DNA of 49,564 bases from Armatimonadota bacterium. Its GTDB lineage: Bacteria > Armatimonadota > Hebobacteria > CAIYQO01. Both the position numbers and the translations under genes were made by a program. The notes below the pieces were generated by a model. The model was not told the origin of the DNA. It was given only the letters and a program-made list of their open reading frames with translations, and ran no database searches. Shown here in pieces: positions 20,206 through 29,038 of this stretch (positions within the stretch are counted from its first letter, which is position 1; every line of letters starts with the position of its first letter). Location: contig JAKPKV010000017.1 of assembly GCA_029553475.1 (NCBI GenBank), positions 1 through 49,564 on the forward strand. Reading direction: 5' to 3'.

Positions 20206-20208
20206 TCA

Positions 20209-20342
20209 GGGCGGGCGAGCGTCCTCGCGAGCCGACGCCGGGAGGAAGTCTTATCCGTCGTGTGCGTTAGAACGACTTTCTTTCGAACACGACATACGAT
20301 CACTTCCTCCCGGAGTCGGCTCGCGGGGATGCTCGCCCGCCC
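20209..20342. repeat. 134-bp palindromic element, copy 1
   Basis: The two ends are inverted copies of about 37 bp (GGGCGGGCGAGCG... and its complement), and the inner parts also pair partly. A second copy of exactly 134 bp lies inverted at 28905-29038 and matches along its length except in the central loop. The element begins 4 bp after the folD stop, so it could also act as its terminator. Confidence 0.85.
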
Positions 20343-20415
20343 GGAAGACGATGACGCGGTAGTGCACGACGCGAAAAAAACCGGGGCAGGCCGCGCGGCC
20401 CGCCCTGGTAGGCGT

Positions 20416-21471: not shown

Positions 21472-21615
21472 GGGCATCTCCTTCACAGCGACCGCGCGGC
21501 CGCATGGGTATCCGAACGTATGGTAGCGGGTCTCTTCCCGCCGGTCAAGGCGTCGGGAAGAGACCGTCATATGCGTCATACCCCGTTTGGCGGCGATGCA
21601 TGCCCGGCGCGCCGC

Positions 21616-22755
21616 TCACGGCAGCACGAGATCCCCTTTGGCGTCCGCCCTGTTTTTCGACCAGTCGAGACGCACGGCGCCGCCGTCGTCGTGCGCGTCG
21701 GGGCCGATGCTGTAGAGCAGGAAGGTGTCGCCGGCCCGCGCGTAGCGCAATACCCCGCGGCTGAAGGGATCGCGCGGGGGCGCGGCGAGGTAGGCGGGGC
21801 AGAGCGCGGCGAGCGTGTCGGGATACACGCCGGTGTCCGTGTGGAACGCTTGCAGCGCCAGCGCGGTCAGCAGCATCTGCTGATCGGTCAGCATCCGTTG
21901 ATAATGTCGCGCAAAACTGACGTGATACGGGAACATCATGCCGGCGATTTTCGTCTTGGGCTCCGGCGGCGTGCCCCAGTCGGGATACGGTTTTTTCACG
22001 GCGCCGGTCCATGCGCGCACCAGGCGCTCGTATTCCGCGATGCCCGCCGAGACTTCCTGGCGAAAGCGCTGCTTGTTCTTCGTGTTCAGCGACGAAAACA
22101 GCTCGCTGAACTCGCTGCCGGCCACGCGTTCGGGATGCTTTGCGATCTCGCGAAGGACGGGCCGTTGTATCGTTAACTCCTGATCAAGGATGGCGGGCAG
22201 CGTGGGCATGGCCGCTTGTATGGCGACGAGGCGGCCGATCGCATCGCGGCAGGCCGTCGGGGAGAGATTTGCGCCGAGCAGCTCCCGCGCCTGCGCCTGC
22301 ATCATGGCATGGCCGGCGAAACTCACCAGCACGGTGAGCATATCGCCGCCGGGATGCAGGCGCGCGGCTTCTTCCATACCGGTGAGGCAGGCCGCCAGCG
22401 CATCATCGGCCTTCCCCTGATCGCGCAGCACGCGCACCTGCAGCAGGCGCAGGCGATAGACCTGGCGGAAGTCACGCAGCCAGGACATCTCTTGCTGGGT
22501 GACGGTAATCGGTCGCGGCGTATATGGCGCCTGACGCGCCTGTTCCATCAGTTCGACCGCCGGCTGCAGGGTGGCGAAAAGCGCCGCACGCTCTTCAGCG
22601 GTCAGTTTATCCCACCAGCCTAATTTCTCTTGCGTGTCGAGCGCGGTGATCTTGGCCGCCGCGGCGCGCAGCAGATCGAACGCGTCCTGTTGGGCGACGG
22701 CGGGCGCCAGCAGCAGGCTGGCCAGCAGGAGCACCAGCAGCTTCGGGATCGTCAT
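21616..22755 (-). CDS. secreted hypothetical protein with pseudopilin-like C-terminal region
   Basis: The 379-residue protein has a clear signal peptide (residues 1-21, cut after PAVA) and a mainly helical body. The C-terminal stretch DTGVYPDTLAALCPAYLAAPPRDPFS...FLLYSIGPDAHDDGG resembles the C-terminal domain of type II secretion G-like pseudopilins and many planctomycete/armatimonad exported proteins. No N-terminal prepilin motif is present. It is transcribed from a strong promoter (22788-22816) divergent from the tRNA operon. Function is unknown. Confidence 0.7.
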   Translation of the reverse strand: MTIPKLLVLLLASLLLAPAVAQQDAFDLLRAAAAKITALDTQEKLGWWDKLTAEERAALFATLQPAVELMEQARQAPYTPRPITVTQQEMSWLRDFRQVYRLRLLQVRVLRDQGKADDALAACLTGMEEAARLHPGGDMLTVLVSFAGHAMMQAQARELLGANLSPTACRDAIGRLVAIQAAMPTLPAILDQELTIQRPVLREIAKHPERVAGSEFSELFSSLNTKNKQRFRQEVSAGIAEYERLVRAWTGAVKKPYPDWGTPPEPKTKIAGMMFPYHVSFARHYQRMLTDQQMLLTALALQAFHTDTGVYPDTLAALCPAYLAAPPRDPFSRGVLRYARAGDTFLLYSIGPDAHDDGGAVRLDWSKNRADAKGDLVLP

Positions 22756-22787
22756 CAGTCGTCCCTCGCTCGCGAAGGATTTTCTGC

Positions 22788-22816
22788 ATCATACGGACCG
22801 GAGGCAGCCCTGTCAA
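22788..22816 (-). promoter_or_regulatory. strong sigma-70 promoter of the secreted protein gene
   Basis: On the minus strand TTGACA (22811-22816) and TATGAT (22788-22793) are 17 bp apart, placing the start about 26 nt before the ATG at 22755. It is back to back with the tRNA operon promoter 130 bp away. Confidence 0.75.
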
Positions 22817-22945
22817 TATCCTCCGCGGGCCGGCGCGGGCACGGGATCAGCAGGCCGTGGCGCGCTGGATCACCCCATTTCCCCTCCGTTTGTCCCCCTG
22901 GGCGGGCATTGTCTCCAGAAATCAGAAAAAACTTCGCGCGCGCTC

Positions 22946-25175: not shown

Positions 25176-25700
25176 ATGGCGTGGTATGTCATCCATACAT
25201 TCACGGGTCACGAGAATAAAGTCAAGGCGAGCATCGAACGGCGTGCGGTCGCGCAGGGCATCGCGTCGAAGGTGCATCGCGTCCTCGTCCTCACCGAAGA
25301 GGAGCTGACCGGCACCCGCGGCGGCAAGAAGCAGATCCGCCGCCACAAGGTCTATCCCGGTTACATCTTCCTCGAAATGGACCTGGATGACGAGACCCGC
25401 TTCCTCATCCGCAATACGCCGGGCGTCACCGGCTTCATCGGCCCGGACAAACAGCCGGTGCCGCTGAAAGCCGACGAGGTGCGCACCATCCTGGAACAGG
25501 TGGAAGGCCCCGAACACCCGGCCAAGCTGCTGTGGAATACCGGCGACGTGGTGCGCGTCACCAACGGCCCCTTCGCCGATTTTCAGGGCACCATCGAGGA
25601 AGTCAACGCCGCCAAAGAACAGGTGCGCGTGCTCATCTCGCTCTTTGGCCGCGACACCCCCGTGACCCTGGGCTTCGGGGATATCGAGAAGATCACCTAG
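25176..25700 (+). CDS. nusG: transcription antitermination factor NusG
   Basis: The 174-residue product has the NGN domain ([20 protein letters not shown] to VTGFIG) and a C-terminal KOW domain ([22 protein letters not shown]...[18 protein letters not shown]). It binds RNA polymerase and couples to Rho or ribosomes. Length and start (ATG 25176) are normal. A degenerate second copy of its KOW domain follows immediately downstream. Confidence 0.97.
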
Positions 25701-25724
25701 CGTGGGGGGAGGCAGGCCAGGCGC

Positions 25725-25924
25725 ATGGATGGCAAGGGGACCGAGAGAGTGCCGCCCCGGCGCATCGGCGAGGGCGTGCGCAGATGCAATGGACCCGACA
25801 CGGATTTTCGGGGCAGCATCACGCGCATCAACGCCGAGACACACCAAAACTGCATGTCGTAATGACCCTGCCCGGTCGCGAGACCCCCGTGATCCTGGGC
25901 TTCGGTGATATTGAAAAGATCACC
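25725..25924 (+). pseudogene. degenerate NusG KOW-domain copy, frameshifted
   Basis: Between nusG and rplK, the frame from ATG 25725 reads [24 protein letters not shown], which lines up with nus[25 protein letters not shown]. The frame then shifts near 25840-25850. A second frame reads [19 protein letters not shown] and then GDIEKIT, matching the nusG C-terminus. From GDVV/GEGV to the final Thr the two spans are 156 and 158 nt, so a single net 2-nt change explains the break. The tail has no stop and runs in frame into rplK. Differences from nusG are often synonymous (GGG/GGT, ATC/ATT, GAG/GAA), which argues for an old or foreign nusG allele rather than a recent local copy. Confidence 0.75.
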
Positions 25925-25987
25925 TGGCACACTGTGGGGGAGGGCGGCGCCGCGCGACGGCGTGCGGCCCGATGGAGGCATACGAAG

Positions 25988-26413
25988 ATGGCGAAAAAAG
26001 TCACCGCCAAAGTGAAACTGCAATTGCCCGCCGGCAAGGCGACCACCGCCCCGCCGGTCGGCCCCGCGCTGGCGCCGCACGGCATTAACATGATGGAGTT
26101 CATCAAGAGCTACAATGCCGCCACCGCCGCCCAGGCCGGCAGCACCATCCCGGTGGAAGTGACGATCTACGAAGACCGCACCTTCACCTACGTCCTGAAG
26201 ACGCCGCCCGCGTCCGAGCTGCTCATCAAGACCGCCGGCCTGCCCAAAGGCGCCTCCGCGCCGGGCCGCGACAAGCCGCTGACCGTGACCCGCGAGCACA
26301 TCCGCAAGGTCGCGGAGATCAAAATGCCGGACCTGAACGCGCACGACCTCGAACACGCCATGCGCATCATCGAGGGCCAGGCGCGCAGCATGGGCTGCAT
26401 CGTCGTTGACTGA
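25988..26413 (+). CDS. rplK: 50S ribosomal protein L11
   Basis: The 141-residue product is L11 of the GTPase-associated centre. It has the N-terminal [30 protein letters not shown] region and the C-terminal RNA-binding domain ending [12 protein letters not shown]. Length is standard. ATG at 25988 has GGAGG 9 nt upstream. The frame is open upstream through the KOW remnant, so a longer fused product is formally possible but the Shine-Dalgarno favours this start. Confidence 0.97.
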
Positions 26414-27190: not shown

Positions 27191-27220
27191 AAGAGGGGCG
27201 CTATCGCCTACCAACACCAC

Positions 27221-27247
27221 GGGACGCCCGGGCCGGGCGTCCCGTTT
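27221..27247 (+). terminator. terminator of the ribosomal operon
   Basis: GGGACGCCCG and CGGGCGTCCC form a perfect 10-bp stem with a 3-nt loop, followed by GTTT. It lies 30 bp after rplA, so rplJ, rplL and rpoBC, which often follow, are not part of this operon. Confidence 0.7.
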
Positions 27248-27260
27248 CCGTGCCTCAAGC

Positions 27261-27423
27261 TGCGGAGTACAACTCCGCACCAGTTTGCCCTCTCTTTGTT
27301 AAATGTAGTGGTCGGTCACGATATACCTTGCTCGGCGACGGGACACGGGACAGCGTGACGACCCGCGACAGGTAAACGAAAGGGTGAGGTCACTCGTGCG
27401 GAGCACAACTCCGCGGCCCCGGT
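27261..27423. repeat. dispersed repeat with TGCGGAGTACAACTCCGC palindromes
   Basis: The 18-bp palindrome occurs at 27261-27278 and, with one change, at 27397-27414. Each carries longer flanks shared with 38826-38905, such as CTCCGCAC-AGTTTG...CTCTTTGTT and ACGA-AGGGTGAGG. Further copies lie at 35159-35176 and 38880-38897. Between the two palindromes is one copy of the CGTGACGACCCGC motif (27350-27376). No gene is seen in this stretch. Confidence 0.7.
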
Positions 27424-27451
27424 GTGGGCGCGCGGGGAAGCGCCGCGGGTA

Positions 27452-28904: not shown

Positions 28905-29038
28905 GGGCGGGCGAGCGTCCTCGCGAGCCGACGCCGGGGGGAAATGATCGTATGTCGTGTTCGATAGATTGACTCTCTCGTGAGCACGACGGATAAGACT
29001 TCCCCCCGGCGTCGGCTCGCGAGGACGCTCGCCCGCCC
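28905..29038. repeat. 134-bp palindromic element, copy 2
   Basis: This is the second copy of the element at 20209-20342, in inverted orientation and of identical length. Here the palindrome extends 3 bp further on each side (CCT...AGG). It lies in the 353-bp divergent gap between the aldolase and FAD oxidoreductase genes. That gap also has a possible promoter for the latter (TTGCCG 29099, TACGCT about 18 bp on). Confidence 0.85.

Follow-up and report, generated by a model that had tools for sequence, protein, structure and literature searches.

A decayed second copy of the nusG 3' end between nusG and rplK in an Armatimonadota genome, probably a relic of partial tandem duplication

Gene layout between nusG and rplK

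The window analysed here is the whole 49,564-nt stretch of contig JAKPKV010000017.1 (assembly GCA_029553475.1) from an Armatimonadota bacterium, and it carries a secE-nusG-rplK-rplA cluster. The NusG protein encoded in the window shares 98% amino acid identity with that of the sister genome of the same genus (G001), and the nusG stop codon is retained at 25698-25700. Between this stop and rplK lies a second stretch related to the nusG end, referred to below as copy 2 and divided into a front and a tail. At the position of the TAG stop of nusG, the tail reads TGG. The features of the locus are listed in Table 1.

Table 1. Features at the nusG-rplK locus of the window
Feature	Coordinates	Strand	Evidence or remark
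nusG, intact, 174 aa, NusG N-terminal domain and KOW	25176..25700	+	Pfam NusG 1.1e-25, KOW 5.3e-9
Copy 1, KOW-encoding 3' end of nusG and source of the copy	25542..25697	+	aligns with 25767-25924
Spacer 1, between both nusG ends, probably a decayed duplicate of the nusG-rplK spacer; end coordinate approximate	25701..25757	+	weak resemblance to the spacer of the sister
Front of copy 2, KOW-encoding in origin but heavily decayed, frameshifted by a net 2 nt near 25838-25852	25767..25873	+	z 7.7 against shuffles
Tail of copy 2, repeats 25647-25701 in direct orientation (55 nt)	25874..25928	+	87% identity; position orthologous to the nusG end of the sister
Native nusG-rplK spacer, containing the ribosome-binding site of rplK	25925..25987	+	93% identical to the 60-nt spacer of the sister
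Intact rplK, encoding ribosomal protein L11, with a start of its own and GGAGG upstream	25988..26413	+	Pfam L11_N 9.9e-27, L11 4.6e-26

Homology between copy 2 and the KOW-encoding end of nusG

Local alignment of 25520-25725 with 25726-25985 showed that the 158 nt at 25767-25924 are homologous to the 156 nt at 25542-25697 of nusG. The alignment scored 81, compared with a maximum of 31 in 2000 dinucleotide-preserving shuffles and of 28 for other stretches of the window. This result confirmed the first-pass annotation, which had described a second, decayed KOW-encoding nusG end between nusG and rplK. The lengths it had counted for the two spans also agreed with ours, and so did the net 2-nt difference in length, which falls near CACCAAAACTG (25838-25852). 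Its placement of the start of the copy at 25725 had to be revised, since the first 42 nt (25725-25766) matched nusG no better than chance, 439 of 2000 shuffles being as good. When the front alone (25767-25867) was compared with nusG, none of 2000 shuffles scored as well (z 7.7). The tail aligned with nusG over 55 nt with ~87% identity and a start-to-start distance of 227 nt, and the longest exact word common to both copies was 12 nt. Copy 2 thus lies next to its source, in the same orientation and with homology above chance, which is the arrangement left by a tandem duplication.

Copy 2 is related to the NusG and KOW domains (Pfam PF02357, PF00467) through its descent from the end of nusG that encodes KOW. 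It differs in being frameshifted, in having no evident start of its own and in the loss of core residues, and the KOW profile of Pfam matched neither 25725-25859 nor the frame running into rplK. No second nusG was found in the genome, where the insert otherwise matched only short, GC-rich words no longer than ~40 nt, with a best E of 2e-4, and a search of the 12 nearest genomes gave no good DNA match to the insert.

The front and the tail of copy 2 differ in substitution pattern

Substitutions were counted at invariant sites, that is, positions where the nusG of the window, the sister and a genome of the same family (G002) agree. In the front of copy 2, changes were found at 9/28, 11/32 and 3/11 of these sites at codon positions 1, 2 and 3, respectively, an even distribution (chi-square p 0.91) suggesting that the front decayed as noncoding DNA. 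Judged by this pattern, the front is evolving like untranslated DNA free of coding constraint. The proportion of changed invariant sites was significantly higher in the front (23/71, 32%) than in the tail (4/42, 9.5%; Fisher p 0.006), and identity to nusG was 61% in the front against ~87-88% in the tail. Differences between the tail and nusG amounted to 1/19, 2/19 and 7/19 at the three codon positions. The earlier remark that many of the differences are synonymous therefore applies to the tail, but not to the front.

The sister genome has a single nusG end

Only one genome of the same genus, the sister, was available in the comparison. It has a single nusG end and no copy, and the 60 nt that separate this end from rplK are orthologous to window 25925-25987. 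Alignment with the sister runs through nusG to window position 25727 and resumes at 25866 with an overlap of ~90 nt on the side of the sister, which puts the excess in the window at one unit of ~227-229 nt. With the ends of the stretches chosen by hand, the two units of the window came to 226 and 228 nt and the single unit of the sister to 225 nt. The extra length equals the repeat period (227 nt from start to start) and the sister has no copy, as found after a duplication. Both flanks are 92-93% identical to the sister, so the same species lies on each side.

The nusG-rplK spacer of the same-family genome is 153 nt long and unrelated. In 28 relatives the locus contains nusG as well as rplK; their spacers measure 4-178 nt and none resembles the nusG end of its own genome (all z <= 2, compared with 29 in the window); one locus (L007) was left out because it contains no rplK. 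Among the nusG genes of 29 relatives, that of its own genus was the closest to copy 2 in both parts: the front scored 19 against the own-genus nusG and at most 8 outside the genus, and the tail matched at 45-47 of 51 positions within the genus and at most 38 outside it. Such proximity makes a foreign donor unnecessary, and this source of copy 2 was rejected.

Spacer 1 showed weak homology to the spacer of the sister, with 3 of 2000 shuffles as good, and to the window's own spacer (18 of 2000). This resemblance, together with the match in unit length (226-228 nt against 225 nt in the sister), is as expected from tandem duplication, and the duplicated unit appears, on these alignments, to consist of the nusG 3' end plus spacer.

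A probable partial tandem duplication followed by uneven decay

We consider it likely that copy 2 is a pseudogene relic, left after the nusG 3' end and its spacer underwent partial tandem duplication. A unit of ~227 nt, containing the KOW-encoding end and most of the nusG-rplK spacer, would have been duplicated in tandem within the genus, and the upstream copy would have remained the working end of nusG. The inner part, comprising spacer 1 and the front of copy 2 (~25701-25873), would then have decayed as untranslated spacer, while the outer tail (25874-25928) was most likely kept nusG-like by recombination between both tails. The same exchange between tails may also delete one unit, which would give the single copy of the sister. 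The relic would have no function of its own apart from lengthening the nusG-rplK spacer.

Partial tandem duplications leaving a truncated pseudogene are known to arise by short-repeat recombination or slippage. The present case shares with them an adjacent unit in the same orientation, apparently made up of a 3' end plus spacer, with a decayed frame and absent from a close relative. It is unlike them in that the inner part is far more decayed than the outer tail, pointing to later recombination of the tails, and in that it sits in the usually conserved secE-nusG-rplK-rplA cluster. In the part of the literature covered, no description of a second nusG KOW between nusG and rplK was found. The relic is an ordinary one from which no new protein or mechanism arises; it offers a small, clean example of spacer growth inside a conserved cluster of ribosomal genes, through partial tandem duplication and subsequent decay.

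As for the date, divergence between the window and the sister at fourfold sites is 0.11-0.27 by gene, and neutral change on the window branch since the split is ~0.06-0.14. The front, with 32% of its invariant sites changed, exceeds the neutral rate since the split (P 4e-5 or less), and the tail with 9.5% fits it. Such an excess suggests either that the duplication came before the split, in which case the sister lost it and the tails were homogenised, or that the front had some other history. The simplest account would be that the duplication is older than the split between window and sister, the front and spacer 1 having decayed since and the tail having been renewed by recombination. A variant that alters only the date, with the duplication arising after the split in the window lineage alone and the inner part decaying unusually fast, is rather doubtful in our judgement. 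It would agree with the absence of the copy in the sister, it would need no loss there, and three quartet sites join both window copies against the sister and the family relative; but 23 of the 71 invariant sites in the front have changed where ~4-10 would be expected. The quartet sites as a whole (3 : 2 : 1) show no clear preference for one order of duplication and split.

Alternative explanations

Relics of this kind could also be left by gene replacement, as the first-pass annotation had proposed; it had also suggested that the copy was once under selection or came from another strain. Copy 2 would then be the leftover 3' end of a native nusG displaced when homologous recombination brought in the nusG of a foreign strain or species upstream. 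At several silent sites (positions 140, 143, 179, 188) the tail does follow the sister and the family relative and not the window nusG, and the spacer behind copy 2 is the native one. The upstream nusG, however, is about as near to the sister as its neighbours are (98% at the amino acid level; fourfold differences 18/92, against 32/213 for tuf and 20/141 for rplA), and a divergence similar to that of tuf, rplK and rplA speaks against its replacement. Moreover, spacer 1 has the look of a duplicate of the native spacer, so that the unit seems to include part of it, and displacement of a gene would hardly leave a front decayed to 61% identity beside a tail of 88%. With its own genus nearest in both parts, copy 2 gives no support to an origin in a foreign species or another strain, and we regard replacement as improbable. 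An assembly artefact, in which reads of two strains were joined at the repeated nusG end, seems still less probable. The assemblies of window and sister are both fragmented, that of the sister being a low-coverage metagenome assembly, and the extra unit ends in the 55-nt direct repeat. Against this, the longest exact common word, 12 nt, falls short of what assembly joins usually need, the decayed front is not obtainable from the intact copy of another strain, and the flanks belong to the same species (92-93% identity to the sister).

A further reading takes the 2-nt shift as a sequencing error that masks either a fusion of KOW with L11 or an rplK leader that contains a KOW and is translated. 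The tail is indeed open in frame into rplK (ORF 25532-26413), as had been noted before, and it retains a protein sequence of 10 letters. As read directly from its sequence, the sister already has nusG and rplK in one frame with only two stops between them, a TAG and one TGA, whose positions read TGG and CGA in the window and so leave its frame open; given that the frame is common to the sister, its being open in the window means little. Long open frames also arise by chance in this GC-rich DNA, as seen from spurious frames of 410 and 527 aa on the other strand, and in DNA of such composition little can be concluded from a frame that stays open into the following gene. The even changes in the front strike core KOW residues (GPF to GPD, VRV to VRR), the nusG stop is kept, rplK has its own GGAGG and start, and the region has no counterpart in the 28 relatives, the sister included. 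In view of the decayed front, the missing KOW profile match and a sister without such a region, a fusion is scarcely credible. Nearly as remote is the idea that the second nusG end is retained for use as a substrate of recombination, or as an unusually long rplK leader that alters expression of the L11 operon; if so, species of the genus would switch between one- and two-unit forms. Neither a promoter nor a terminator was found inside the insert. Partial tandem duplication followed by decay is the reading we prefer.

Other features of the window

An RNA element or leader in the nusG-rplK spacer was searched for and rejected: no Rfam family reached its gathering score, and folding was no better than that of shuffles (z +0.95).

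A dispersed repeat of ~134 nt, which folds as DNA into a long and almost perfect hairpin (-65 kcal/mol, z -13.7), occurs at 20206-20345 and 28905-29038. It is present at ~40 places of the genome with 80-94% similarity and many times in the same-genus genome, and was absent from the same-family genome and four others examined. It looks like a genus-specific miniature inverted-repeat element, for which it is a candidate. On the minus strand, a 379-aa open frame at 21616-22755 is absent at the corresponding place in the same-genus genome, whose alignment skips from 21612 to 22890 across 64 nt.

Downstream of rplA, the spacer at 27245-27440 exceeds that of the same-genus genome by ~185 nt. The hairpin at 27196-27247, just after rplA, matches the Rfam family ftsZ-DE with E 0.008, far below the family cut-off, and is most likely simply the rplA terminator hairpin.
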